22,712 nt of DNA, from contig DHZF01000019.1 of NCBI GenBank assembly GCA_002414505.1, positions 1-22,712 on the forward strand, in the 5' to 3' direction. Shown here piece by piece: positions 8,131 to 21,758 of this stretch. The notes under the pieces are model-generated. The model had not been told where the DNA came from, made no database searches, and saw nothing but the letters and a program-made list of their open reading frames with translations. This DNA is from Hyphomonas sp. UBA5111. Lineage in GTDB: Bacteria; Pseudomonadota; Alphaproteobacteria; Caulobacterales; Hyphomonadaceae. Positions within the stretch are counted from its first letter, which is position 1, and each line of letters begins with the position of its first letter. A program made the position numbers and the translations under genes.

Positions 8131-9057
8131 GTGGCGAATGCCCGACAAATAATGAGCTTGCGGCATGTGGAAGTGTTCAATGCTGTTTATCAAACAGGCT
8201 CGGTCAGCGGAGCTGCCAGGGCGCTGAATGTTTCACAGCCATCCGTAAGCAAAGTACTCCGTCATGCGGAGAGTCGGATAGGATTTGTTCTGTTCCGCAT
8301 AGTAAAAGGGCGCCTGGTGCCAACTGACGAGGCCCATATCCTGTTCCAGGAGGCTCGGGAGCTCTATGCGCGGGTGGAATCCTTGCAGGAGACCGCGAAG
8401 AATCTGCGACTCGGAGCCGGCGGCAGCTTGCGTCTTGCGGTCCTGCCATCGCTCGGGCTCGAAATCGCGCCGGATGCAGTCGCACGGTTTCATGCAGACA
8501 ATCCCACCGTCGCATTCGAGATTCAGACGCTTCACAATGGCGATGTGCTGCGGTCCCTCTATGAACGAAACAGCGACTTGGCGCTCGCGCATGATGCCCC
8601 CCATCATCCCCGGCTTGTTTCCTCGAAGGTCGGGTCCGGTGAACTGGTTTTGCTGTTTCGAAAGACGGACCTTCCAGATCCGCCTGACCTCGTTCCACTC
8701 GACATGTTGAAACGGCATAATCTCATCCGCCTGTCGGGGACCGGCGCAATTGGTACATTGTTCACGAATAATATTGCTGGCGGGCAGGGGGCCCCGGCCA
8801 GTATTGCGGTCCAGACCTATTATATCGCAGCCTCATTGGCCCGGAGGGGGGCTGGTATAGCTGTGGTGGATGAGTTCACTGCGCGGGCAAGCCTGTCGCC
8901 AGACATGGATTTCCGCCGGCTGGAGCATCGCCCGGCCTTTGATATCCATTGCGTCCATCTGGAAGATCGGCCGCTTTCCGGTTCTGCCAAGAAATTCATG
9001 TCCGTGCTTCAGGCGACCATCAAGACCGCCAGGCAGGCCAACGGCGCCGAGGCATAG
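8131..9057 (+). CDS. LysR-family transcriptional regulator of the D-glutamate locus
   Basis: The protein has 308 residues, starting at a GTG with a strong Shine-Dalgarno (GGGAGG, six bases upstream). An ATG seven codons downstream is a weaker alternative. The N-terminal winged HTH spans about residues 8-66, with 'FNAVYQTGSVSGAARAL' followed by 'VSQPSVSKVLRHAE', the classical LysR signature. The C-terminal effector-binding domain begins near residue 93 ('GSLRLAVLPSLG'). It is divergent from the TonB receptor and 103 bp upstream of dgcN in the same direction, so it probably controls both sides. A LysR-type D-glutamate-responsive regulator (DgcR) is known with dgcN/dgcA in marine bacteria. This protein could be its counterpart, but that is a context-based guess, so no symbol is given. 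The inducer is not visible in the sequence. Confidence 0.92.
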   Translation: MANARQIMSLRHVEVFNAVYQTGSVSGAARALNVSQPSVSKVLRHAESRIGFVLFRIVKGRLVPTDEAHILFQEARELYARVESLQETAKNLRLGAGGSLRLAVLPSLGLEIAPDAVARFHADNPTVAFEIQTLHNGDVLRSLYERNSDLALAHDAPHHPRLVSSKVGSGELVLLFRKTDLPDPPDLVPLDMLKRHNLIRLSGTGAIGTLFTNNIAGGQGAPASIAVQTYYIAASLARRGAGIAVVDEFTARASLSPDMDFRRLEHRPAFDIHCVHLEDRPLSGSAKKFMSVLQATIKTARQANGAEA

Positions 9058-9160
9058 ATGAAGGTTATATCAGACCTCTACCTTTGACCTTTTCCCGAGA
9101 CGGCAGACCCGCGATCATGGCGGAAACAGACCACAATCACTTCATCCGAGCGAGTGTTCC

Positions 9161-10183
9161 ATGATCCCCTCTCCCTACCTCCTGTATCTCGGCAATTCGA
9201 CAGAAGCGCTATCTGTCAAAACCTCGCGCGGCGTGGCGGCCTGGCGACCCGAACTCTGTATTGGCGAGTTTCGCGGCGAGGCGTGTACGCTGACCGTCGG
9301 CCTGGATCATCTGTCATTTGCGCAAGCCTATGCGCAGGGCGCAAAAACACTGATCATCGGGGTCGCCAATGCGGGCGGCGTGCTGGGCGAGGCGACCGTA
9401 TCCCATGTCGTCGAGGCGTTGAAGGCGGGCCTGAATGTGGCGTCCGGGCTGCATGAACGACTGATGTCCCATGCAAGTGTGCGAGAGGCCGTTGCGGAGA
9501 CGGGCCGGCAAGTGTTCGATGTGCGCGAGCCCCCGGCAAACCTGCCCGTCGGCAATGGTCGCCCGCGCGCCGGGCGTCGTTTGCTCACGGTGGGGACAGA
9601 CTGTTCGGTGGGCAAGATGTATACGACTCTCGCTTTGGAGCGCGCGCTGGTGAAGCGGGGCGTGTCTGCCAGCTTTCGCGCCACCGGCCAGACCGGCATA
9701 TTCATTGCCCAATCGGGCGTGCCGGTTGATGCCGTCATAGCCGATTTTATCTCGGGGGCCGCTGAGTGGATTTCCCCCGCACGCGAAGATGGGGGCTGGG
9801 ACCTGATCGAGGGGCAGGGCTCCTTGTTCCACCCTTCCTATGCGGGTGTGTCCATGGGGCTGCTGCATGGTTCGCAGCCGGATGCGCTCGTCCTGTGCCA
9901 TGAAGTCGGTCGATCCCATATGCGCGGACTTCCCGGCAGGTCACTTCCGGATCTCAGGACATGTCTTGAGACGAACCTCCAGGCTGCCCGCCTGACCAAT
10001 CTTGACGTGAAACCCATCGGCGTCGCGCTGAACACGTCCAATGTGGACCGGGACGAGGCGCGCCGTGTGTGCGAGCAAGTTGAGGCCGAACTGGGACTGC
10101 CCTGCCAGGACCCGGTCGCCATGGGTGTGGACAAGATTACAGACAGGCTGCTGGAATGCTTCGAGACATGCGAATACGTCTAG
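9161..10183 (+). CDS. dgcN: DgcN, DUF1611-family D-glutamate N-acetyltransferase
   Basis: The protein has 340 residues. DUF1611 proteins have a P-loop-like motif, seen here as 'LTVGTDCSVGKMYTTLAL' (about residues 142-159). It is followed by 'ATGQTGIFIAQSG' and 'LIEGQGSLFHPSYAGVSMG', all typical of this family. In the described marine pathway DgcN acetylates D-glutamate to N-acetyl-D-glutamate, which DgcA then racemises. The reading frame overlaps the start of dgcA, so the two are translationally coupled. The Shine-Dalgarno of the ATG at 9161 is weak, but the N-terminus (PYLLYLGN...) fits the family length. The assignment rests on the family motifs plus the dgcA neighbour. The acetyl-donor specificity and activity are carried over from the family, not shown here. 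Confidence 0.88.
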   Translation: MIPSPYLLYLGNSTEALSVKTSRGVAAWRPELCIGEFRGEACTLTVGLDHLSFAQAYAQGAKTLIIGVANAGGVLGEATVSHVVEALKAGLNVASGLHERLMSHASVREAVAETGRQVFDVREPPANLPVGNGRPRAGRRLLTVGTDCSVGKMYTTLALERALVKRGVSASFRATGQTGIFIAQSGVPVDAVIADFISGAAEWISPAREDGGWDLIEGQGSLFHPSYAGVSMGLLHGSQPDALVLCHEVGRSHMRGLPGRSLPDLRTCLETNLQAARLTNLDVKPIGVALNTSNVDRDEARRVCEQVEAELGLPCQDPVAMGVDKITDRLLECFETCEYV

Positions 10184-11151
10184 AAAGATTTCCCCTGGCG
10201 GCGCCGTTCCGGATATCCAGAGGGATCCGGACCGTTGCCGAAATCGTGGAAGTCGAGCTCCAGGTCGATGGTGTCACGGGACGCGGAGAATCTGTTCCCT
10301 ATACCCGGTATGGGGAAACGCTCGACAGCGTCGTCGACCAGATTGAAGAGATCCGGTCTGCCGTTCAGACGGGACTGGACCGGGCCGGGTTGCAGGCATT
10401 GCTGCCCCCGGGCGCGGCCCGCAATGCCGTGGACTGCGCGCTTTGGGACCTAAATGTCAAACAAGGCCTGGACGTCGACCTGTTGTCTGCCCCGCAGCCC
10501 GTTGCAACGGCGCTGACGATCGGGGTCGACACGCCGGCTGCGATGGAACGCGAAGCGGCCAAGCTGGCAAATGTGCCGGTGATCAAGGTGAAGGTCGCAG
10601 CCCAGCAGGTGGAAGAGAGCCTTTGCGCTGTGCGCCGCGCTGCGCCGCTGCCCCGCATGATCGTCGACCCGAATGAAAGCTGGGATATTGGCATGCTGCA
10701 GGACTTGCAGCCCCTGCTGGAAGACCTGGACGTCGCCTTTGTCGAGCAACCCCTGCCGAGTACTGAGGATGGAGCCCTGGCTGGCCTGGTCCGGCGTGTT
10801 CCGGTTTGCGCAGACGAATCCTGCCACACAGCCGACGATCTGGACCGGCTTGAGGGCCTCTATGACATAGTGAACATCAAACTGGACAAGACAGGTGGCC
10901 TGACCGAAGCGTTCAGCCTGCTTGAGGCGGCCCGAAACACGGGGTTTGGTGTCATGGTCGGCTGCATGATCAGCAGTTCGCTTTCCATCGCGCCGGCACT
11001 CCAGATTGCCGCGCAGGCCGACTTTGTCGATCTGGATGGTCCTGCCTGGCTGAAGCATGATCGACGGGGAGGCATTTCCATAAGAAATGGCCAATTGATC
11101 CCACCGCGCGCCGGGTTCTGGGGCTCGGGCGCTATAGTGCAACCTGTCTAG
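10168..11151 (+). CDS. dgcA: DgcA, N-acetyl-D-glutamate racemase (enolase superfamily, dipeptide-epimerase type)
   Basis: The protein has 327 residues from the ATG at 10168. An ATG four codons earlier (10156) is possible, but family members usually begin at 'MRIRLERF'. It overlaps dgcN by 16 bp. Enolase-superfamily epimerase features are present in order: the capping domain with 'FRISRGIRTVAEI', the K-x-K catalytic pair in 'IKVKVA' (about 140-142), metal ligands in 'IVDPNESW' (D167), 'FVEQPLP' (E193) and 'CADES' (D216), and the second catalytic lysine segment 'NIKLDKTGG' (about 237-245). Dipeptide epimerases (L-Ala-D/L-Glu) share this architecture. Adjacency to dgcN favours N-acetyl-Glu racemisation over muropeptide dipeptide epimerisation. 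The enzyme acts in the cytoplasm and is Mg-dependent by family. The alternative is an Ala-Glu epimerase acting in peptidoglycan recycling. Confidence 0.88.
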   Translation: MRIRLERFPLAAPFRISRGIRTVAEIVEVELQVDGVTGRGESVPYTRYGETLDSVVDQIEEIRSAVQTGLDRAGLQALLPPGAARNAVDCALWDLNVKQGLDVDLLSAPQPVATALTIGVDTPAAMEREAAKLANVPVIKVKVAAQQVEESLCAVRRAAPLPRMIVDPNESWDIGMLQDLQPLLEDLDVAFVEQPLPSTEDGALAGLVRRVPVCADESCHTADDLDRLEGLYDIVNIKLDKTGGLTEAFSLLEAARNTGFGVMVGCMISSSLSIAPALQIAAQADFVDLDGPAWLKHDRRGGISIRNGQLIPPRAGFWGSGAIVQPV

Positions 11152-11196
11152 CTGATTGTCTCGATGACAAAGGCCACACATATGAAAGGAAAGAAA

Positions 11197-12834
11197 ATGC
11201 AGAGACTTTCACGCTTGAGAACGTGCCGCTCCTGGGGGGCGACCTATGCGATCCCGGTGGCTTTGTGTGTCGGGTGCGCTGCACCGGTCGAACAATCTGT
11301 CGAGGTGCCTGTCCAGAAAGCGGATATCCTGCTCCTGAACGGCACCGTATATGATGGCAGCCTGAGCGATCCGGTGGTCACCGATGTCGCGATCCGCCAG
11401 GACCGGATCGTTTTTGTCGGAGATGCCGAAGCGGCGGGATACACGGCCCCCATATCTCTGGATGTCACGGGGCAGGTTGTCGCCCCGGGTTTTATCGATC
11501 CGCATACGCATTATGACAGGGACATTGTGCCATGGTCGCAGGATCCGGAGAAAAGCCTGATCCTTCCCGCGCTCATGCAGGGCGTCACGACCGTATTTGT
11601 CGGCGTCGATGGGTCCGGACATCCAGCGATCGACCAGACGCTTTCAAATGCGGACAAGAAAGGCATCGGTCCCAATGTCGCCGCCTATGTCGGCTTCGGG
11701 GCCGTCCGAAGCATGGTGCTGGGATATTCGGACAAGGCGCCGGATACTGACGAGCTCGAGTCGATGAAACACATGGTCGGCCAGGGCATGTGTGAAGGAG
11801 CGTTCGGGTTCTCGACGGGCCTGTTCTATTCGCCGCAAAGCTATTCCGCCCAGGACGAAGTCATCGCGCTGGCCAAGGAGGCCGCGGTTCGGGGCGGCCT
11901 TTATGACTCCCATCTGCGCGACGAGTCTTCCTATACGGTGGGTCTGCAGGGCGCTGTCCAGGAACTCATCGACATCGGCCATGCGACGGGCATGCCCGTC
12001 CATATTGCTCATATCAAGGCCCTGGGAGTCGATGTGCATGGCGAGAGCCAGGAGGTCATCGGGCTTGTTGAATCTGCCCGGGCGTCAGGACTTGCGGTGA
12101 CAGCCGATCAATATCCGTGGATCGCGTCCGGCACCAGTTTTTCTGCCGCCTTGTTGCCGCGCTGGGCGCAAGTGGGCGGGGAAGACGCGATGCTGGAAAG
12201 ACTTCAGGATGCTGAGCAGGGGCCGAAGATCCGCGAGGCCATGGCCGAGAATCTCAGGCGCCGGGGCGGGGCGGACTCTCTTCTCCTGTCCAATCGCGTC
12301 CAGCAGGATCTGATTGGCAAAACCCTTCAGGATCTGAGCGATGAATGGGCGCTTGATCCTATTGATGCAGCCGTGAAGGTTCTGGAAATGGGCGGGGCAG
12401 GCGTTGCCTCGTTCAATCAGAGCGAAGAGGATGTCAAACGCTTCATGCAAGAAGACTGGGTGATGACCTCGTCAGACGCGTCTCCTGGCCATCCTCGCAA
12501 ATATGCAAGCTATGCCACCAAATACGCCAAATATGTCAAACAGGAAGGCACGATCACGACCGCCCACTTCGTGCATTCCAGCACAGGACTGGCCGCAGAC
12601 GCGCTGGGACTGGTGGATCGCGGATATCTGAAGGCAGGATATTTTGCAGACATTGTCGTGTTCAGTCCCGAAGACTATGCGCCGCGTGCCACCTTCCTGG
12701 AGCCGGAAATCCTGTCAGTCGGGGTCGTGGATGTGCTCGTGAATGGTGACTTCGCCGTGCGCGACGGCGAACCGACGGGCGCGGCGCCCGGTCGCGGTCT
12801 GAAGCATGTCCCGCTGCGAGGAACTTGCGACTAG
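11197..12834 (+). CDS. Secreted N-acyl-D-amino-acid deacylase (amidohydrolase), predicted lipoprotein
   Basis: The protein has 545 residues from the ATG at 11197, chosen over ATGs at 11164 and 11182 because AAAGGAAAG lies directly before it. The N-terminus is a basic stretch, then a hydrophobic segment ending 'ALCVGC', with C27 a plausible lipidation cysteine. The -3 residue is Cys instead of the usual Leu, so this is not ideal. The catalytic domain is an amidohydrolase: 'GFIDPHTH' (H103, H105), 'SHLRDES' (H239), 'HIAHIKALG' (H272) and 'TSSDASPGHP' (D427), in the order seen in D-aminoacylases. The usual metal-binding Cys in a GNCG segment is replaced by Asp (D138 in 'VGVDGSG'), a variant found in part of the family. 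The likely role is removing acyl groups from N-acyl-D-amino acids in the periplasm, feeding D-glutamate to the neighbouring symporter and DgcN/DgcA. It starts 45 bp after dgcA and is probably in the same operon. Exact substrate is inferred. Confidence 0.85.
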   Translation: MQRLSRLRTCRSWGATYAIPVALCVGCAAPVEQSVEVPVQKADILLLNGTVYDGSLSDPVVTDVAIRQDRIVFVGDAEAAGYTAPISLDVTGQVVAPGFIDPHTHYDRDIVPWSQDPEKSLILPALMQGVTTVFVGVDGSGHPAIDQTLSNADKKGIGPNVAAYVGFGAVRSMVLGYSDKAPDTDELESMKHMVGQGMCEGAFGFSTGLFYSPQSYSAQDEVIALAKEAAVRGGLYDSHLRDESSYTVGLQGAVQELIDIGHATGMPVHIAHIKALGVDVHGESQEVIGLVESARASGLAVTADQYPWIASGTSFSAALLPRWAQVGGEDAMLERLQDAEQGPKIREAMAENLRRRGGADSLLLSNRVQQDLIGKTLQDLSDEWALDPIDAAVKVLEMGGAGVASFNQSEEDVKRFMQEDWVMTSSDASPGHPRKYASYATKYAKYVKQEGTITTAHFVHSSTGLAADALGLVDRGYLKAGYFADIVVFSPEDYAPRATFLEPEILSVGVVDVLVNGDFAVRDGEPTGAAPGRGLKHVPLRGTCD

Positions 12835-12850
12835 ACATCCAGGGATCATG

Positions 12851-12887
12851 GCCCCCAGCCGGAGACAGGGCTGGGGGCTGTTTCTGG
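12851..12887 (+). terminator. Intrinsic terminator after the deacylase gene
   Basis: A 10-bp perfect stem GCCCCCAGCC / GGCTGGGGGC with an 8-nt loop lies 16 bp past the deacylase stop and is followed by TGTTTCTGG, a modest U-rich tail. It likely ends the dgcN-dgcA-deacylase transcript, or attenuates read-through into the symporter gene. Confidence 0.7.
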
Positions 12888-12954
12888 TCCTGTTCCGGTC
12901 GGATTTCATCCAGCGCGTTCACAAGCGATATTCATTCTCATTGGGAGCTCGGTC

Positions 12955-14208
12955 ATGAGCAAAGCCTTGTCATTCTGGGTCGGTATCGTGCTGTGGAAGC
13001 GAATTCTGCTGGCCCTGCTACTCGGGGCCGCCCTTGGCGGTGTTGTCGGCGAGTCCATCGAGGGGATTGCCTGGGTCGGAGACTTGTTCATTCGGCTGAT
13101 CAAGATGCTGATCGTCCCGCTCGTCTTTGTGACCCTGGTGTCCGGCGTGGTCTCGATGCATGACCCCCGCCGACTCGGCTCAATCGGCGGGCGCGCCATC
13201 CTTCTCTACCTGGTCACCACACTTGCGGCGATCATGATCGGTCTGGTCCTGGCCGTTATCGTGGAGCCTGGCACGGGGATTGATCTGAGGGGGGCAACGC
13301 CGATTGAGTTGCAGGCGCCGATTGCCCTGAAGGACCGATTGCTGGCCATTGTGCCGGTCAATCCGTTCGCGGCCTTTGCGCAAGCCGACTTGCTGGCGAT
13401 CATCTTCTTTGCCTTGCTGACCGGGACCGGCCTGCTCCTGATCGGGGACCGGGGAACGCCGCTTGCCGATGCCTTTCAGTCCGGTTCGGACCTGATGCTC
13501 AAGATTACCGGGCTCGTGATGGAGTTTGCGCCGTTTGGCGTGTTTGCGCTGATTGCGGTCGTCATGGGCACGAATGGCCCGAAGACATTCGTCTATCTGT
13601 TCTTCCTTGCGCTGGTCGTTGTGCTCGGTTGCTTCCTGCAAATCGTCCTGACCCAGGCCGTCCTGGTCAAATTGCTCGCGCGTCTTCCCGTCTTGCCCTT
13701 CCTGCGCGGGGTCAGGGAAGCTCAGCTCGTCGCCTTCTCGACCTCATCAAGTTCGGCAACCTTGCCGGCATCCCTGTCCGTGGCCGAGCACAATCTCGGC
13801 ATTCAGCCCGCGGTCGCATCCTCTGTGCTGCCGCTCGGGGCCACCATCAATATGGATGGCACTGCGCTTTATGTGTGTGTGGTCACGATCTTTGCAGCGC
13901 AGGCCTTCGGCATTCCGCTCGAATTGAGTGACTATCTCCTGATTGGACTGACCACGACCCTGGTCTCGGTCGGGACCGCTTCGGTCCCGTCTGCCTCCCT
14001 GTTCCTCCTGGCCGCCGTACTGGACACAATCGGCATGAGCCCCGAGCAGACAGCGCTGGTGGTCGGCTTCATCCTTCCGTTCGACCGTATCCTGGACATG
14101 ACCCGGACCGTTGTGAACATCACGGGCGATCTGAGTGTGGCGACCGTCGTCGCCAAATGGGAGAAGGACATAGACGAGGATCTGTACAAGGCTGCGCCGA
14201 CGGAATAA
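12955..14208 (+). CDS. DAACS-family dicarboxylate/amino acid:cation symporter, probably for acidic amino acids
   Basis: The protein has 417 residues with GGGAG seven bases before the ATG. It is a multi-span inner membrane transporter of the GltP/DctA type. Signatures are the serine-rich hairpin motif 'FSTSSSSATLP' (261-271), 'NMDGT' (299-303) and the substrate-binding helix 'DMTRTVVNITGDL'. In that helix D381, R384 and N388 occupy the positions of D394, R397 and N401 of the archaeal aspartate transporter GltPh. The arginine at this site contacts the side-chain carboxylate and is expected for Asp/Glu transport, whereas neutral-amino-acid relatives replace it. Placement immediately after the D-glutamate genes therefore fits uptake of glutamate, possibly including the D-isomer. 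A terminator lies between it and the deacylase, so it may have its own promoter. Stereospecificity is not predictable from sequence. Confidence 0.9.
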   Translation: MSKALSFWVGIVLWKRILLALLLGAALGGVVGESIEGIAWVGDLFIRLIKMLIVPLVFVTLVSGVVSMHDPRRLGSIGGRAILLYLVTTLAAIMIGLVLAVIVEPGTGIDLRGATPIELQAPIALKDRLLAIVPVNPFAAFAQADLLAIIFFALLTGTGLLLIGDRGTPLADAFQSGSDLMLKITGLVMEFAPFGVFALIAVVMGTNGPKTFVYLFFLALVVVLGCFLQIVLTQAVLVKLLARLPVLPFLRGVREAQLVAFSTSSSSATLPASLSVAEHNLGIQPAVASSVLPLGATINMDGTALYVCVVTIFAAQAFGIPLELSDYLLIGLTTTLVSVGTASVPSASLFLLAAVLDTIGMSPEQTALVVGFILPFDRILDMTRTVVNITGDLSVATVVAKWEKDIDEDLYKAAPTE

Positions 14209-14365: not shown

Positions 14366-15367
14366 TCACAATCTGAACAAGCCGAGCCCGTCATAAATCT
14401 CGGATCTTGTCTGTTCTGTCAGGCTACGAGCCTTTTGCGTTCCGTCTCGAACGATGTCGCGAATATAGTCCGGATCCTGTTCAAGCTGGGAGCGCCGGTC
14501 TCGTACAGGTTCCAGAAAGGTCTGCAAGATCCCATCAAGGCGCTTTTTCAGCGTCACGTCTCCAAGGCCGCCGCGGCGGTAGTGAGCCTTCAGCGCTTCC
14601 ACTTCCTCGGCATCAGTGTGGAAGGCATCAAGATAGGTGAACACCACATTTCCTTCGACTTGCCCGGGATCCTGCACCCTGAGGTGATTTGGATCTGTGT
14701 ACATCGCCGTCACAGCCGCTGAAATTTCAGCCGGGCTTGCCGACAGCCTGATGGCGTTGCCGGCGGACTTGCTCATCTTGGAAGCCCCATCCACGCCCGG
14801 CAACCGTCCTGCCTTCGGCACAATGGCCTCGACCTCTTCGAGCAGGGGGTGACCGGCAACCGAATTTACTCTCCGAATGATTTCGTTGGTCTGCTCGATC
14901 ATCGGGACCTGATCTTCGCCCACCGGCACGAGGGTCGCCCTGAACGCCGTGATGTCAGCCGCCTGAGCTGCGGGGTAGCAGAGAAATCCTGCCGGGATGC
15001 TCTTCTCAAAGCCCCGCGCGCGAACTTCTTCCTTGACGGTGGGGTTTCGTTGCAATCGCCCGACCGAAACGAAATTGAGATAGAGCAGTGAGAGCTCGGC
15101 AAGTGCGGGCAAATGCGACTGAACGCAGATTGTCGTCTTCTGAGGATCAATACCGACGGCGAGATAGTCCATCACCACGTCCAGAACGCTCTCCCTGACT
15201 TTGCCGATACTCCCGATATTGTCGGTCAGGGCCTGAGTGTCTGCGAGCAGCACGAATTGCCTGTGGGTGTCCTGGTATTTCAAGCGGTTTCTGAGGGATC
15301 CGGCATAATGCCCCAGATGAAGCGGGCCGGTCGTGCGATCGCCGGTGAGGATGATGGGGTGTGACAC
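14366..15367 (-). CDS. trpS: Tryptophanyl-tRNA synthetase of the Firmicutes-like type
   Basis: The protein has 333 residues from a GTG at 15367, chosen because AGGAG lies six bases upstream and because 'SHPIILTGDR' is the usual N-terminus. The ATG nine codons upstream has no such support. Class I synthetase signatures are HLGH (17-20) and KMSKS (197-201). Other conserved segments are 'LADTQALTD', 'RNPTVKEE' and 'PAAQAADITAF'. The N-terminus 'PIILTGDRTTGPLHLGHYAGSLRNR' resembles the streptococcal/lactobacillal enzyme more than the common proteobacterial form ('...SGIQPTGNLHLGNYLGA'). This may therefore be a second or substitute TrpRS. It charges tRNA-Trp in the cytoplasm. Its mRNA leader contains a tryptophan-codon attenuator, so expression should rise when charged tRNA-Trp is scarce. 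Whether another trpS exists in the genome is not known. Confidence 0.95.
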   Translation of the reverse strand: MSHPIILTGDRTTGPLHLGHYAGSLRNRLKYQDTHRQFVLLADTQALTDNIGSIGKVRESVLDVVMDYLAVGIDPQKTTICVQSHLPALAELSLLYLNFVSVGRLQRNPTVKEEVRARGFEKSIPAGFLCYPAAQAADITAFRATLVPVGEDQVPMIEQTNEIIRRVNSVAGHPLLEEVEAIVPKAGRLPGVDGASKMSKSAGNAIRLSASPAEISAAVTAMYTDPNHLRVQDPGQVEGNVVFTYLDAFHTDAEEVEALKAHYRRGGLGDVTLKKRLDGILQTFLEPVRDRRSQLEQDPDYIRDIVRDGTQKARSLTEQTRSEIYDGLGLFRL

Positions 15368-15409
15368 TGTATTCTCCTGGATGTGTGGGGCCACCGCAGG
15401 AGAGGAAAC

Positions 15410-15477
15410 AAAAAAGGCCGCTCATGCGGCGACCCAATGTGGAATATGAAAGCTGGGCCACCCGATTATCGGATGTG
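15410..15477 (-). promoter_or_regulatory. Transcription attenuator in the trpS leader (alternative RNA pairings and U-run terminator)
   Basis: On the minus-strand RNA, GGUGGCCCA (15462-15454) can pair over nine positions, two of them G-U, with UGGGUCGCC (15436-15428). This would be the antiterminator. The latter segment can instead form the terminator: GGUCGC (15434-15429) with GCGGCC (15421-15416), or GCCGC with GCGGC around an AUGA loop. It is followed by UUUUUU (15415-15410) and lies 43 bp before the trpS start. A third, protecting hairpin CAC-AU-CCGA / UCGG-GUG (15477-15459) overlaps the Trp codons' downstream side and blocks the antiterminator strand. A ribosome stalled on the two Trp codons would cover this region and free the antiterminator. 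This is the classical trp-type attenuation layout. I paired bases by hand and did not compute energies. Confidence 0.85.
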
Positions 15478-15513
15478 CCACCACGCGAAGTTCGTGTTGC
15501 TTCGTTTACTCAT
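15466..15513 (-). CDS. Leader peptide with tandem Trp codons upstream of trpS
   Basis: This is a 15-codon ORF, MSKRSNTNFAWWHIR followed by TAA, with two consecutive UGG codons at positions 11-12. Tandem Trp codons are a hallmark of trp operon leader peptides, and the codons sit directly before the alternative hairpins described at 15410-15477. No good Shine-Dalgarno precedes the ATG, and the predicted promoter (TTGACG-N17-TAGGCA) would start transcription at the A of this ATG. Leaderless trpL mRNAs of this kind are known in Sinorhizobium. The peptide is thus a regulatory sensor of tryptophan supply, possibly with no product function. Identification rests on tandem UGG, position and attenuator fit. 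Confidence 0.85.
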   Translation of the reverse strand: MSKRSNTNFAWWHIR

Positions 15514-15548
15514 GAATGCTGCCTATCGCGCGAGAATAAATGCGTCAA
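15513..15548 (-). promoter_or_regulatory. Predicted promoter for the trpS leader transcript
   Basis: On the minus strand TTGACG (15548-15543) is followed after 17 bp by TAGGCA (15525-15520). The -35 matches 5 of 6 consensus bases and the -10 is weak. The expected start, seven bases after the -10, falls on 15513, the first base of the leader ATG. This agreement with a leaderless leader is notable but not experimental. Confidence 0.6.
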
Positions 15549-15772
15549 CGCTCGCGTCGTGTCTCGTTCACGAACAGCCCAAGATCATCCCTTGCAACAA
15601 GCTAAAACAGTCTGCTGCGGGCGCAAAAGCGGTCATAAGCAAGTCGACCATTCCCGCCAAAGGCCTGGATTCTGATCCAATTAGAATAAGACGCTCGACC
15701 TTCGCAAACCCTCAGCTTCAGATTCTCACTCTCTTTCCGCAATCTTGCCGTTAATAGGTATTTTCCCGCGCT
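15549..15772. other. Intergenic spacer between trpS promoter and the GNAT region promoter
   Basis: Part of the 317-bp gap between the trpS leader ATG (15513) and the short ORF at 15831. I see no gene, hairpin, tRNA or repeat here. The stretch is more AT-rich toward its right side and probably only separates two divergent promoters. Confidence 0.5.
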
Positions 15773-16389: not shown

Positions 16390-16572
16390 CTACGCCTGGT
16401 TTTCTGGCAGTGGCTAAAACCCAACAAAACGCCATTGAACCGATGGAGCTTGAACTTGCGATGCCTGGAGATCTTTAAGCCGAGGTGGTCACGTTGAAAG
16501 AACGAAGGAGCAACATTATCTCTCGTCTTGATCCAATTTGATATCTGGCAAGAGGTGCCCACCGCATTTTTC

Positions 16573-19500
16573 ATGACGAGCGAGACACAATATCCCCTTT
16601 CCCCTGACCCGAAGCGGCAGGCGGCGCATATTGTCAGCGCGTTTCGCTACCAGCTGATGGAAACCGCCATAGCCTGGATGACCCTGCCGGAAGAGGCGAA
16701 CCTCCTCATCGAAATTTTCGAAGACTTCGATATCGAAACGCCAGACGGCGCGACCGAACTGACCCAAGTCAAACACAGCGTTAGCGATCGCGCCCTAACC
16801 CTTGCCAGCAACGCCGCACGTGACGCCCTGACCAATTATTGGAACACCAGCCGCGCCGGCGAAGTCTCTGGCGTATCGCTCATCGTCCATACCAATATGC
16901 CCATCGGCTCTGAACGCGGCGCCAGCCTGCCGGATGACGCGACCGGTATCTCCTATTGGCAGGCCGTTAAAGACGGCGCAGATAGCGGCCCGCTCAAAGA
17001 TCTCCTCATCGCAAGCCTGCCAGAGGGCGACTTGAAATCCTGGCTCGCAAGCGATCCGCCCGATGCGGCGCTTCGCGCCCGATTGATTGACCGCGTCTCC
17101 TGGAAAACAAGCCAGCCCAGCGGCGCGCCGCAGAACGCGCTTCTGGTGGAACTGATCGCTGGGCGCCTTGCCGCGCTTGAATTGCCAGTCGTCCTGGCGC
17201 CGCGCGTCGCCGGAGCCATTATCGAGCGCATCGGCATGGTCGCCAGCGAAACCGATCCGAGCCTTCGGCGCCTAACCCTCGCCGACCTCCACGCCTTCTT
17301 ACATGAACTGAGCCGCCCCGGTCAGCCAGGCCATGAGCCCGCCTGGGCCCGGGCAAGCTGGACGGTCCCAGTGGACGAGACCGAGCTTCCCGCCCTGTGC
17401 GCTGGCCGCGACTCGCTGGTCAGCGCCTTGTCAGGGACACTAAACGAGACAGGCGCGCTCTGGCTGCATGGCGCCAGCGGGACCGGCAAATCCACGCTTG
17501 CTCAGCAGGCCGCGCGCGCCGGTGCTGACAACTGGCTCGTCATCGAATTCAGAGACCAGGTCAAACCAAGCGACATCCTTCTTCGGCTCGACCGCGCCTA
17601 TACGGACGTTGTACTAACTGATCGGGTTGGCGGCGTCATTCTCGATGATCTGGATGCTGACTTTGTCGCCCAGCACGCCGCCCGTTTTGGACGTTTTATC
17701 AAATGGATGGCGGCGCGCGGCGCCCGCGTGATCGTTACTTCAGCAAGACCCCTCAGCCCGGCGGCGCTCCAGTCCGCCAGTCTCCCACCCGACGCGCTCA
17801 AAGACGCGCCTTATCTGACCCAGGACGACGTCACGCAACTCGTCTCGCAAACCAGCGCGCCGCCCGACATGACCGAGGCTTGGGGCCTCTTCATTCATCT
17901 CTCAACCTCAAGCGGCCATCCGCAATTGGTTGCCGCCAAAGCGGTCTCGCTCGACCATCGCGCCTGGCCCAAAGAGGCCTTAACAGAAGACATGTCCGGG
18001 ACCCCGAGCGATGCCGTCGAGCTCACCCGCACTGAGGCGCGCCGGCGACTTTTAAATGACGCAACCGGTGAGGGCCGCGCGCTCTTAAAACGCCTTGGCT
18101 GCATCATGTTTAAATTTGACCGCGCCTCCGCCATTGCCGTGGCTGCCCTTGACCCGCCCATTGAAGACGCATCGGCCAGCCTTGACCTGCTCACTGGTCC
18201 CTGGATCGAAAAGTCGCCGACCGACCCTGGATATTTACGCCTATCGCCGCTGCTCACCGGTTTGCAGCAGGATCTCGGTGAAGACACCATTCAGCAAATA
18301 CAAACCGGGTATCTGGTCGCTAGGATCAAACGCGGCGCGATCCCCTATGAAGCGCTGGATTCTGTCTTCTGGACCGCTTTTCTCGCCAAGCAGGGCTGGT
18401 TCTTCACCAAGTTCTTCGAAAGCTCACTCTCTTTTGATGAGGAGAAGAGCAAAGCCATTGCGGTGAGGCTCGGCGGCCTTGTCTATCTCACCACCAATCG
18501 CCCTCTGTTCCCGGACGATCCCGGCACGTCGCATATCTTAAGGCTGTTGCAGATCGACACGGCGGCGCTCAATGGCGAGAAAACCCTGTTCCAGCCAATC
18601 GCCATCGCCGCCATGCGCGAAGCCATGGAGATCGAGCATGACGAGCTGAAAGACGCGTTCAGCCTGATGGCGCTGATGAAGATCCTTCTCGCCCAAGGCG
18701 CGAAGCTGGATTGGGGCTTGCGCCTGTCTTACATCGCCTATTTTGAAGCCCTCGCCTATAAAAACCCGGACTTGGTCAATCGACACCGCGGCGCAGTCTT
18801 CGACGCAATGCAGGCGGAATTTGGCGAAGCCGCCGACACACCGGGCTTTATGCTGAATGTCGGCGTCTCAGCGATTGAAAACCCGGCCGAGTTAAGAACC
18901 CTTTTCATCGCGCTCGATGCGCTCGATTCAGCGCTCCGTACGCAGAGATTGGCGCAGCTTAAAGCCTTCTTCAAAACTTACGGTCTGCATATCCAGTCAG
19001 CCTGGGCGCGTGCCTGGTCGGCGGGCAAGCTCGACGCCGAAGCGGCGATCTCAGACTATGAAGAGATGGCGACCCTGGCGGCGCGCTGGTCTGATGAAGA
19101 TCTCATCGCCGAATGCGTCATCGCCCAATCCGTCCTCTGGGATGAAATGCAAGACAACCGTCCAAGGGCCATGCAAGTGGTCGACGCCGCACTTGAGGCC
19201 CTGCCAGATCATCCAGAACTGTTACGGCAAAAGGCTAAAGTCCATGGGCATGACCGTCAATATGACAAAGCCCGCGCTATTCTCGAGCAGATCCGGCCCC
19301 GCACCGATGACGGCTCCGACATTGAGCGCATGTACGCGCTCAAAGAACAGGCCGTCGCGACCGCCAATCTTGGCGATACCGACGCTGCACGCGTGCTATT
19401 TCTGGAGGCGGCCGCCGCCGCAGAAGCGGTAGAAGAAGATGTTGGCTCCATGCGCGCCCATGCCATTGCCCTGCGGGCTGAAGCGGCCATGTGTTCCTGG

Positions 19501-20589
19501 CGAGACGGCGCGTTTGAACCGGCGCTGCGCGAGATCGCGCCGCTGATCAATACTCTGGAGCAGGTGAATCCAGAGGATCATCAAGCAGCGAAGAACCTGC
19601 ATCTCAAATTGCGCTGGCTGGTCGGTTGGCTGCATGAGACCACCGGTGGTCCCACAGGTCTCCGCCGAGAACTTCGCTACGGCGCCCTTGCCGCCCTCGA
19701 CACCGATTATCCAGAACAGGAGGGCGACCGCGCCGCGCGTCACGAAGACATCAAACTCTTACTCCTCATGGTGGGTTTGAGAAAGCGCGTGCCGGACCTC
19801 TTCGCAGACCTCGATTGGTCCGAGACAACCATCGGCTTTCACATCTTCCTCGCCGCAGCAGAGTTTGATCTTGCCGTAGAGGACAGGGATCCGAACCTGC
19901 TCGCTGACGCCGTGTTGCAGCTCACTGGCGCTTTCAATGACGCGCTTAAAAAGAAAAATGACGTCCCCTCCACGCCCACCGAGAAAGTCAAATCCATTGA
20001 CGCCAGCGACATGGAAGAGAAGACCATCAAAGCGGTGTTCGAGCATGCCATCGCGCTCGCCGCCTTCTTTGGCGCTCAGGGTCAAACTGACAAGAAAGCC
20101 TGTTGCGAGACCTTTCTGACGCGCATCAAAGATCGCTTGGGCGATACGACGCCAATGCTTGATAAGTTCAGTGACATCCTCGCTGGAAAGGCGGACGCTT
20201 ACCCAGGCAATCAAGCGGAACTGATCTTCAAATCTGCCTTCGCACCTGGCTCGGAGGTGCTTCACCCCGCCGACATCATCAATCGTCAACTCGCCATCCT
20301 GCAATGCGCCATTGCCTGCGGCTGTGGGGCCCGTCTGGTATTCCGCATCCATCACCTCTTCGCCGATGAGTGGGACTATATTCTGAGCCATCAACGCTTT
20401 TTGCTGACCCAGCCCGCCCTGCACGCGCCCGCCCTTGAAGCCGCCATCGCCTATGCAAGAGAGGTTCAACCGGGATCGCTGCCCAATCTCCTGCAAACCG
20501 GCGCGCGCGCCCTCAACGACCAAGTCCCTGATGCATGGCTCGCCGTTGCAGAGCAGCTCGGCGGAAAAGCTGGCGCTGAAGCCCATTGA
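16573..20589 (+). CDS. STAND-type NTPase with Cap4/DUF4297-like nuclease domain, putative antiphage protein
   Basis: The protein has 1338 residues from the ATG at 16573. A TTG 15 codons upstream (16528) is an alternative, and neither has a well-spaced Shine-Dalgarno. Residues ~10-110 resemble the DUF4297/Cap4 restriction-like nuclease: 'AFRYQLMETAIAW', then 'IEIFEDFDIETPDGATELTQ' followed by VKHS. The acidic residues (E50-D53) and Q-V-K (65-67) fit a PD-(D/E)xK active site. A P-loop NTPase follows: Walker A 'GASGTGKST' (300-308), Walker B 'VILDDLD' (355-361), and a sensor segment 'ARVIVTSARP' (384-393), the order found in STAND/NLR-like ATPases. From about 430 to the end the protein is alpha-helical and repeat-like (TPR-type stretches such as 'PELLRQKAKVHGHDRQYDKA'), a typical ligand-sensing arm. 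Avs-type proteins use this layout to cut DNA after recognising phage proteins. It precedes a DUF3800 gene by 53 bp. The nuclease assignment is by motif only, and the sensor specificity is unknown. Confidence 0.8.
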   Translation: MTSETQYPLSPDPKRQAAHIVSAFRYQLMETAIAWMTLPEEANLLIEIFEDFDIETPDGATELTQVKHSVSDRALTLASNAARDALTNYWNTSRAGEVSGVSLIVHTNMPIGSERGASLPDDATGISYWQAVKDGADSGPLKDLLIASLPEGDLKSWLASDPPDAALRARLIDRVSWKTSQPSGAPQNALLVELIAGRLAALELPVVLAPRVAGAIIERIGMVASETDPSLRRLTLADLHAFLHELSRPGQPGHEPAWARASWTVPVDETELPALCAGRDSLVSALSGTLNETGALWLHGASGTGKSTLAQQAARAGADNWLVIEFRDQVKPSDILLRLDRAYTDVVLTDRVGGVILDDLDADFVAQHAARFGRFIKWMAARGARVIVTSARPLSPAALQSASLPPDALKDAPYLTQDDVTQLVSQTSAPPDMTEAWGLFIHLSTSSGHPQLVAAKAVSLDHRAWPKEALTEDMSGTPSDAVELTRTEARRRLLNDATGEGRALLKRLGCIMFKFDRASAIAVAALDPPIEDASASLDLLTGPWIEKSPTDPGYLRLSPLLTGLQQDLGEDTIQQIQTGYLVARIKRGAIPYEALDSVFWTAFLAKQGWFFTKFFESSLSFDEEKSKAIAVRLGGLVYLTTNRPLFPDDPGTSHILRLLQIDTAALNGEKTLFQPIAIAAMREAMEIEHDELKDAFSLMALMKILLAQGAKLDWGLRLSYIAYFEALAYKNPDLVNRHRGAVFDAMQAEFGEAADTPGFMLNVGVSAIENPAELRTLFIALDALDSALRTQRLAQLKAFFKTYGLHIQSAWARAWSAGKLDAEAAISDYEEMATLAARWSDEDLIAECVIAQSVLWDEMQDNRPRAMQVVDAALEALPDHPELLRQKAKVHGHDRQYDKARAILEQIRPRTDDGSDIERMYALKEQAVATANLGDTDAARVLFLEAAAAAEAVEEDVGSMRAHAIALRAEAAMCSWRDGAFEPALREIAPLINTLEQVNPEDHQAAKNLHLKLRWLVGWLHETTGGPTGLRRELRYGALAALDTDYPEQEGDRAARHEDIKLLLLMVGLRKRVPDLFADLDWSETTIGFHIFLAAAEFDLAVEDRDPNLLADAVLQLTGAFNDALKKKNDVPSTPTEKVKSIDASDMEEKTIKAVFEHAIALAAFFGAQGQTDKKACCETFLTRIKDRLGDTTPMLDKFSDILAGKADAYPGNQAELIFKSAFAPGSEVLHPADIINRQLAILQCAIACGCGARLVFRIHHLFADEWDYILSHQRFLLTQPALHAPALEAAIAYAREVQPGSLPNLLQTGARALNDQVPDAWLAVAEQLGGKAGAEAH

Positions 20590-20642
20590 CGCGGCGCTGT
20601 ATGAGATAATGAGACGCCGACCCCTTCCCCTTCGAGACTGCC

Positions 20643-21758
20643 ATGATCGATATTGACGATATTCGCAGCGCCCACATCAAGATGCATCGCCTCACTGGCA
20701 TGGATGACGCCTACACTTTCTATCATGATGAAACCAACAATATAAAAAAGCTCCGCATCAAGACGGGAGGCTTTAACGTCGCTGAGCCCGGTGTTTTCGT
20801 CCTGGGCGGTGTTGTGCATCCTGGCACGCCCAGGGACTTGGATATCGAAACGCTGCGCGCAGATATGCGCATTCAAAAGAGCGCGAAAGAGATAAAGCTG
20901 GAACACGTCGCCAAGGGGCGGTTTCTAGACGTGCTGCGCTCAACCAAACTGACCGTATTTTTGCGCTGGCTTTCTGAGAACGATTTGAGGCTGCACTATC
21001 ACGCCCTCGATCCTGTCTATTGGGGGATTGTCGATATCTTGGATTCCATTCTCTACCGGCTGGGAGACCCACATCTCGCCCAGGCGCATATCTTCCTCAA
21101 AGCCGATCTTTCCGCCCTCTTGCGCGCGAACCTTTCTGACACTGCCGCGCTCTTCTACAAATACAACTATCCCGCGCTAAGCGCCGCGCACCGCGCGCCC
21201 TTTATCGATGACCTCCTCGCTTTGGTGGAGCGCGATCAAGACAGTCTACCAGACTATAACTCCATGATGCTAAAAGGCGCCCTGCAACGCGCGCGGCGCC
21301 TGCCCAGCTTCGATTTTATCGAAGGCTACACCGCTCATGAACTGCTGGGCACCTTCGCACTGTTTTATCTGACGCGGATCGCGGTGTTCAAACACGCATT
21401 CCATATTCTCGATATGGAAGACACGGTCCGCGACGAGATGATCGCGCTCGCGCCAAGCTCAAACGGCGTCCCCGTTGAAAATTACAAATTCTGCGATTCA
21501 AAATCCGAGACAGGGATTCAGGTCTCGGATGTCATCGTCGGCGTCTTAGGAAAAATGTACACTTACCTCGTTGAAACGCCGCGAGATCAGGTCCTGACCG
21601 ATCAAGCCGCATTGTCAGGCCCAAGCAAAACCAATGCAGATCTGTTGCGTGACTTGATTGATGAAGCCAACGTCGCAAACACCGCTTTCTTGAACCATGT
21701 GATGAGCAACTCAGACGTGGACAAGATGAACCTGTTTCTTGGTATCTCGCGATCGTAG
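20643..21758 (+). CDS. DUF3800-family protein, probable partner of the STAND nuclease
   Basis: The protein has 371 residues starting 53 bp after the upstream gene, same strand, so a two-gene operon is likely. DUF3800 proteins carry an N-terminal D-E-(S/T) motif and a C-terminal D-S-K...Q-x-x-D motif on an RNase H-like fold. Here these are 'FYHDETNN' (D29, E30) with 'FVLGGVVHPG' after it, and 'CDSKSETGIQVSDVIVG' (D285, D296). The four acids could form a metal-binding nuclease-like site. The molecular function of the family is not settled, but members are often found in defence islands and mobile elements. The ATG at 20643 has only a weak ribosome site. ATGs at 20682 and 20700 are alternatives, both still upstream of the D-E motif. 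Role in defence is inferred from the neighbour. Confidence 0.8.
   Translation: MIDIDDIRSAHIKMHRLTGMDDAYTFYHDETNNIKKLRIKTGGFNVAEPGVFVLGGVVHPGTPRDLDIETLRADMRIQKSAKEIKLEHVAKGRFLDVLRSTKLTVFLRWLSENDLRLHYHALDPVYWGIVDILDSILYRLGDPHLAQAHIFLKADLSALLRANLSDTAALFYKYNYPALSAAHRAPFIDDLLALVERDQDSLPDYNSMMLKGALQRARRLPSFDFIEGYTAHELLGTFALFYLTRIAVFKHAFHILDMEDTVRDEMIALAPSSNGVPVENYKFCDSKSETGIQVSDVIVGVLGKMYTYLVETPRDQVLTDQAALSGPSKTNADLLRDLIDEANVANTAFLNHVMSNSDVDKMNLFLGISRS

Follow-up and report, generated by a model that had tools for sequence, protein, structure and literature searches.

The window analysed here, a stretch of 22,712 nucleotides from Hyphomonas sp. UBA5111, carries on its minus strand a gene for a tryptophanyl-tRNA synthetase (TrpRS), which is preceded by a short open reading frame (ORF) with two adjacent tryptophan codons and by a series of RNA segments able to pair with one another. 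The genome (3.26 Mb, 83% complete) also contains a housekeeping trpS, a separate gene that adjoins murJ, and the trpS of the window is an auxiliary second copy beside it. The features of the locus, with the pairing segments of the leader RNA numbered 1 to 5, are as follows.

15522..15548 (-), putative promoter: -35 box TTGACG (15548-15543), 15-nt spacer, -10 box GATAGG (15527-15522)
15466..15513 (-), leader ORF, putatively leaderless: ATG at 15513, 15 codons MSKRSNTNFAWWHIR, TAA at 15468-15466
15483-15478 (-), tandem UGG codons (TGG TGG) of the leader ORF, read from the sequence
15459..15475 (-), 1:2 hairpin CAUCCGA/UCGGGUG: 7 bp, arms 15475-15469 / 15465-15459
15454..15462 (-), segment 2 GGUGGCCCA, antiterminator partner of segment 3
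15462-15454 / 15436-15428 (-), putative antiterminator 2:3: 9 bp, two of them G-U
15425..15436 (-), segment 3 and part of the loop UGGGUCGCCGCA, common to the antiterminator (15436-15428), the terminator (15430-15426) and the 3:5 helix (15434-15425)
15410..15430 (-), intrinsic terminator GCCGC-AUGA-GCGGC followed by C and U6: stem 15430-15426 / 15421-15417, six T at 15415-15410
15389..15398 (-), segment 5 UGCGGUGGCC, pairs with 15434-15425: 10 bp, two of them G-U
15373..15403 (-), hairpin UCUCCUG/CAGGAGA sequestering the Shine-Dalgarno (SD) sequence: arms 15403-15397 / 15379-15373
15378-15374 (-), trpS SD sequence AGGAG
14366..15367 (-), auxiliary tryptophanyl-tRNA synthetase, TrpRS-II type: GTG start at 15367, 333 aa, zero Trp

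The auxiliary synthetase

The gene had been read simply as trpS in an earlier note on this DNA; it does encode a synthetase, although an auxiliary one and not the housekeeping enzyme, to which it is 30% identical. By sequence comparison it is of the TrpRS-II type, closer to TrpRS II than to the other solved TrpRS: the closest solved structures, 2a4m and 1yi8, which we take to be chains of Deinococcus radiodurans TrpRS II, score 379.7 bits versus 239.9 for the next and are free of W wherever their chains align. The nearest named proteins are from Hyphomonas, with 91% identity to that of H. atlantica. TrpRS II of D. radiodurans is known for its nitric oxide synthase partner, according to the available part of one report (PMC9437257).

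The absence of tryptophan extends well beyond the window. No Trp was counted in 54 of the 55 proteins encoded behind a leader with tandem Trp codons (WW leader), while housekeeping TrpRS have two to four in the first 325 residues in all 22 rows examined, two of which (L001 and L137) represent one and the same gene of this genome. Relatives that are not preceded by such a leader are also mostly Trp-free (32/37, plus four of five further rows), so that the absence of Trp is a trait of the enzyme type and not of the attenuated copies alone.

The housekeeping motif VVDLHAIT, the His of which is presumably His43 of the B. stearothermophilus enzyme, aligns with LADTQALT of the window enzyme, which places a Gln at the position of the indolmycin-contacting His; Gln45 is invariant in the 17 aligned sequences. 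Replacement of His43 by Asn confers indolmycin resistance, as stated in the consulted portion of PMC4899734. Like auxiliary indolmycin-insensitive TrpRS, the window enzyme carries no His at this contact, and it may be insensitive as well.

The leader ORF and its distribution

The elements listed in the earlier note, namely a 15-codon leader ORF with tandem UGG, a 9-bp antiterminator pairing and a GC-rich terminator hairpin with six U (15430-15410), are all present on the minus strand upstream of the trpS GTG. The note had also placed the start of transcription at the leader ATG. The putative -10 box, which ends 8 nt upstream of this ATG and reads TATAGG or TATAGT in the nearest relatives, fits such a start; on the other hand, a consensus scan of the window found no sigma-70 promoter, and the boxes are weaker and of an alpha-type. 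They were picked by eye and by best score in the comparison with relatives and are accordingly putative, as are the best-scoring -10 boxes of many alphaproteobacterial (alpha) loci, which end 6-9 nt upstream of the ATG. Within the Hyphomonas group the DNA is similar from the -35 box onward and divergent upstream of it. A match of at least 4 nt to AGGAGG precedes the leader ATG in one of 32 alpha loci and one of 23 others, compared with 31/32 and 20/23 for the trpS starts; a predicted SD sequence is accordingly absent from the leader starts of 31 of the 32 alpha and 22 of the 23 other loci. The alpha set is a grouping made in this analysis, in which L083, a Proteobacteria MAG, was counted with the beta/gamma group.

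The leader peptide itself varies among relatives, and what is kept is mainly the WW near its C-terminal end. For the survey, a tandem-Trp leader was defined as an ATG-started ORF of 10-26 aa containing TGGTGG within 350 nt upstream of trpS. Conservation of the UGG codons in relatives, which the earlier note had proposed as a check, was borne out: they were found in front of trpS in 14 of the 15 close relatives (L004-L018, the exception being L016, with one Trp codon) and in 41 of 80 wider named loci (L042-L121), against shuffle-control means of 0.00-0.20 per group, and also in 24 of 29 loci fetched later. In the 350 nt upstream of 21 housekeeping trpS genes and of 23 small-genome relatives none was found; for two of the small-genome loci L020, L027, L032, L038 and L040 the scored upstream sequence was just 290 and 243 nt long. 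Nor was one found upstream of the housekeeping trpS of the present genome. Tandem-Trp leaders in front of this trpS clade occur in alpha-, beta- and gammaproteobacteria, and among the 80 wider loci a tandem-Trp leader is absent from those of Acinetobacter and Pandoraea and from most of Cupriavidus. In six Duganella, Pseudoduganella and Caballeronia loci (L084, L087, L094, L095, L108 and L081) a single Trp codon stands in the place of WW in otherwise similar leaders, for example within YWRRS, NWRRC or TWCRS.

The gene itself is sparsely distributed. It was detected in nine of 105 genomes of the family-level sample (E 1e-60), all of the same genus, in 7/299 of the order sample, in 34/385 of the class sample, many of these genomes being small, in 6/61, 4/40, 2/36 and 1/1 genomes of four other alphaproteobacterial orders (E 1e-125) and in 24/398 of the phylum sample (1e-110). 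Where the Trp leader is present, a further trpS is nearly always present too: at least two trpS matches were counted in all 26 genomes with a Trp leader (25 with WW and one with a single Trp codon; L045 was left out), compared with a single match in all 13 genomes of the first set that have no Trp leader. In the fresh set, at least two matches were found in 23 of 24 genomes with the leader, and one match in three of the five without a WW leader. The exceptions are G1123, with a leader and one copy counted, and G761 and G1009, with two copies and no WW leader. The leader is thus nearly restricted to auxiliary trpS copies. The present genome has two trpE-family matches, one of which scores above the family cut-off; neither is preceded within 330 nt by a comparable tandem-Trp leader, so that the attenuator here serves the spare synthetase.

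TrpRS-II-type enzymes are also encoded without a WW leader in small alphaproteobacterial genomes, Acinetobacter and Cupriavidus (L019-L041, L050, L054, L057 and L066). Where copies were counted, in nine small genomes (9 of the 23 small-genome relatives), three of Acinetobacter and one of Cupriavidus, the enzyme is the sole TrpRS.

Predicted alternative helices of the leader RNA

The 1:2 hairpin forms with a probability of 0.96 in the window fold when no ribosome is present. It had been described in the earlier note as overlapping the stall site; it starts 3 nt past the Trp codons and excludes them, although a ribosome stalled on these codons would still cover it. The distance of about 20 nt from the Trp codons to segment 2, judged against the geometry of the E. 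coli trpL leader, suits a stalled ribosome that leaves segment 2 free. The stretch 15400-15516 is more stable than its shuffles (z -2.43, with 2/200 equally good). The note had proposed folding the leader and comparing the two alternatives; their mutual exclusion did not emerge from static folds of the window leader: with a stalled ribosome, the 5-bp terminator stem is still likely to form (0.72-0.87) beside a shortened 2:3 helix, because only three bases are common to both, and exclusivity must therefore be kinetic or leaky.

The comparison covered 55 loci with the leader. Segment 3 could be anchored by motif in 51 of these, 39 of which were left after removal of near-identical leaders, and conformers were scored for 47 loci (35 non-redundant). 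Three alignments were made: A3, with 15 of 17 type A alpha loci (L013 and L046 left out); A4, with 13 of 15 type B alpha loci (L012 and L042 left out); and A5, with 18 of 23 non-alpha loci, which was misaligned and excluded from the pair counts. L072 and L078 have a terminator by scan and were placed with type B in A4, while the conformer scoring keeps their scan label. Among the 29 fresh loci, 24 have the WW leader, 19 could be anchored and nine remained after removal of those resembling earlier loci or each other.

An intrinsic terminator lies between leader and gene in the window and in 35 of the 55 loci; the scan used here found no U-tract terminator in the other 20, which it labels type B and many of which keep the leader and segments 2, 3 and 5. 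When partners were exchanged between the 39 non-redundant loci, the terminator 3:4 showed a clear preference for the native partner (z -9.3) and the antiterminator a small one (z -2.3), which was not found in the beta/gamma group (z +0.8). The 2:3 helix is better than shuffles in 20/39 loci over a narrower stretch (Fisher 6.5e-19). When the test takes in the full stretch that begins at the Trp codons, the helix reaches p<=0.05 in just 9/35 loci; these codons are themselves able to pair with segment 3, which partly explains the low count. No compensatory changes in 2:3 were found in the 15 rows of the type A alignment, while in the 13 type B alpha rows two of ten pairs change on both sides (covariation 0.119 versus 0.074, 5/500).

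The earlier note had called the attenuator complete. The elements that it listed are there, but it missed a conserved pairing and a hairpin located between the terminator and trpS. Segment 5, the complement of the 5' arm of the terminator plus its loop, is positioned upstream of the trpS SD sequence and starts 27-46 nt upstream of the start codon in most loci, with outliers at -55 (L046), -63 (L100) and -148 (L092). In the partner-swap test across the 39 loci the native 3:5 helix gives -20.97 kcal/mol versus -15.88 when swapped (z -11.6, 0/2000), which makes it the best-supported helix by this test, ahead of the terminator and of 2:3. Segment 5 paired with the loop alone, a pairing that cannot derive from segment 4, still gives a swap z of -6.4, with p<=0.05 against shuffles in 9/39 loci. 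The 3:5 helix is better than within-locus shuffles in 33/39 loci (Fisher 1.7e-38), and of the nine fresh loci, fetched after the hypothesis had been formed, eight pass (swap z -5.5, 0/2000). Stem covariation, a further check named in the note, was found for 3:5 and to some extent for 2:3 in type B alpha loci. In the 13 type B alpha loci, six of 12 pairs of the 3:5 helix change on both sides, 93.4% of cells are paired and covariation is 0.409 versus 0.223 in shuffles (0/500). In type A, pairing is kept in 83.3% of cells versus 82.2% in shuffles (5/500), one of the ten pairs fails in 13/15 rows and there is hardly any covariation (0.130 versus 0.117, 57/500), so that support in the group of the window comes from conservation and not from covariation. 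By comparison across loci, the 3:5 helix is real, and it suggests an added output at the level of translation.

Upstream of trpS, the native sequence forms a better SD hairpin than its shuffles do (Fisher 3.9e-9 overall, 11/39 loci individually). In the window this hairpin encloses the SD sequence and shares two bases with segment 5. In energy, the three conformers differ by some kcal/mol at most, and 3:4 is usually the lowest; the SD sequence of the window is closed in the 2:3 and 3:4 conformers (0.00) and open in 3:5 (0.81 free, 0.37 stalled). In equilibrium folds of the window, a stalled ribosome leaves the SD hairpin closed (0.90-0.91), and a ribosome placed on the stop codon, where it covers segment 2, gives an open hairpin and 3:5 at 0.84; induction would require the reverse. 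The simplest possibility, that segment 5 frees the SD sequence upon stalling, was tested and is unsupported by equilibrium folding. With a stalled ribosome, type B loci expose the SD sequence more in the 3:5 conformer than in the 3:4 conformer (Wilcoxon p 0.002, n=13, median 0.08); no significant difference was seen in type A, to which the window belongs (p 0.50, n=22).

In nine type B leaders (L011, L017, L055, L058, L070, L074, L082, L086 and L098) the SD hairpin stands directly behind segment 5, and the scan found no U-tract after the 3:4 hairpin. They are candidates for purely translational attenuators.

Proposed mechanism, alternatives and known systems

What the analysis shows directly is how the leader is built, that it is conserved and nearly restricted to auxiliary copies, and that segments 3 and 5 are complementary. 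The leader is very probably a ribosome-mediated attenuator that induces a back-up TrpRS when charged tRNA-Trp runs low; leader translation, ribosome stalling, termination and the tRNA signal are what we infer. Attenuation of trpS from a putatively leaderless leader peptide, the central proposal of the earlier note, is thereby well supported by conservation. Transcription would start at or beside the leader AUG, and a ribosome would load on the leaderless end. With enough Trp-tRNA it would reach the stop codon, segment 2 would be unavailable and the 3:4 terminator would form, yielding a transcript of about 104 nt that ends upstream of trpS. Upon a shortage of Trp-tRNA, whether tryptophan is low or the housekeeping TrpRS is damaged or blocked, the ribosome would stall on UGG UGG, 2:3 would pair and RNA polymerase would read into trpS, the product of which, having no Trp residue, can be made during the very shortage that induces it. 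Segment 3 could alternatively pair with segment 5, beside and partly within the SD-sequestering hairpin, and a second, translation-level output of the leader is likely. It is conceivable, and we put it forward tentatively, that a single signal sets both transcription and translation of trpS: segment 3 would have three competing partners (2, 4 and 5), the stall would first keep it from the terminator, and segment 5 would then capture it through the terminator loop as a toehold and open the SD hairpin, in an emergency circuit shared across alpha-, beta- and gammaproteobacteria.

The data might also be read as a mainly translational attenuator, in which the terminator plays a minor part and the output is set by competition between 3:5 and the SD hairpin, with segment 5 invading through the segment 3 loop as a toehold after 2:3 has formed and so freeing the SD sequence. 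The 20/55 loci in which no U-tract terminator was found, many of them keeping the leader and segments 2, 3 and 5, speak for this possibility, as do the covariation of 3:5 in the alignment of type B alpha loci (6/12 pairs; 0.409 versus 0.223) and the exposure of the SD sequence in type B loci (p 0.002, n=13). We nevertheless consider it doubtful, since the exposure effect is small even there (median 0.08), is not significant in type A, the window included (p 0.50, n=22), and the SD sequence is not freed by stalling in equilibrium folds. An unlikely variant has the terminated leader RNA acting in trans, its segment 3 and loop pairing with segment 5 of the trpS mRNA much as the trp attenuator RNA of S. 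meliloti acts on another mRNA; rnTrpL is a trans-acting attenuator RNA according to the available part of PMC7298713. The 3:5 complementarity does span the terminator loop, which a short RNA would leave free, but it is also kept in loci with no U-tract terminator, which might make no such RNA, and pairing in cis requires no extra step.

Very improbable is the proposal that the leader ORF is a translation enhancer or encodes a small protein, the hairpins being merely a terminator. Leader genes may work by reinitiation instead of attenuation, as the consulted portion of PMC4833913 describes, but the distance required there is short, compared with 98 nt from the leader stop to the trpS start in the window. 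The alternative helices have one segment in common, and it is mainly the Trp codons near the end that are kept while the peptide varies, which counts against a functional peptide. That the controlled gene is a synthetase would suit a T-box or another tRNA- or ligand-binding riboswitch, to which we assign next to no probability: no Rfam family reached its gathering score in the window, and a lax search of 15350-15580 gave three matches up to E 1, none of them T-box. The best of the three, at 15489-15408, is Trp_leader (RF00513), a family of similar overall layout, with 23.2 bits, below its gathering cut-off of 41.

Attenuation by leader peptide thus remains the preferred reading, and systems that resemble it have been described. 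Vecchione and Sello reportedly described ribosome-mediated attenuation of the auxiliary trpRS1 of S. coelicolor in 2010, and a study by Lopatovskaya, Seliverstov and Lyubetsky from the same year, on attenuation of amino-acid and aminoacyl-tRNA operons, may already predict some such leaders. Attenuators of trpS have been reported in Streptomyces, for trpS2 of S. avermitilis and trpL2-trpS of S. lividans, with a Trp-codon leader peptide upstream of trpS as here (PMC1262725, PMC8079986). In the portions of these papers at hand, the S. lividans leader, MMTRTCTQLWRAA, has one Trp codon and no U-rich run after it, whereas the window has tandem UGG and a U6 terminator; as far as the leaders given there can be compared, the window also differs in the third partner for segment 3 and in phylum. 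The trpL of S. meliloti (rnTrpL/peTrpL) is leaderless from its AUG, as the window leader is presumed to be, with consecutive Trp codons, an antiterminator and a terminator; it controls trpE, and the available text mentions no 3:5 helix (PMC7298713, PMC10117765). In Rhodobacterales, the uORFC-8-2 motif precedes another synthetase gene, cysS; it includes a U run, and its tandem cognate codons mostly occupy positions 14 and 15. The differences, in the extract seen, are Cys codons and a rare third paired region that shows no covariation (PMC8632094). A translated small CDS upstream of trpS is noted in Caulobacter in the part of PMC4117421 consulted. By analogy, the window leader probably works like these Trp- and Cys-codon synthetase attenuators and like leaderless trpL.

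Considering these excerpts (PMC1262725, PMC8079986, PMC8632094, PMC4117421), the suggestion in the earlier note that attenuation of trpS is poorly described in this lineage loses part of its force. What appears to be new, as far as open-licence papers were searched, is the link, seen in three classes, between the leader and auxiliary TrpRS-II-type copies that are free of Trp, together with the 3:5 helix, of which no earlier description was found in the same body of papers. With few exceptions, the combination of a Trp-codon leader and an auxiliary TrpRS free of Trp occurs in genomes that have a further TrpRS, which suggests that a module for emergency charging is widespread in Proteobacteria. 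What TrpRS-II-type duplicates are for can thereby be tested in terms of shortage, damage or natural inhibitors of TrpRS. In the swap test the terminator is less partner-specific than 3:5, which indicates that four segments do not describe this class of leader fully; if the two outputs are indeed coupled, the leader would be a self-sufficient emergency circuit against failure or inhibitors of TrpRS.

The window contains two further gene groups on the plus strand. At 8131-14208 lie genes for a LysR-type regulator, for DgcN and DgcA (both over their cut-offs) and for amidohydrolase-like and dicarboxylate/glutamate-symporter-like proteins, likely to be a D-glutamate catabolism cluster convergent with trpS. 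The region 16528-21758 encodes a protein of 1353 aa, whose N-terminal stretch is LmuA-like (E 5.5e-9) and which has weak STAND/AAA-like matches, and behind it a DUF3800 protein with a match to the candidate defence family PDC-S51 (E 1.7e-100); judged from these matches, the two look like an anti-phage defence pair.
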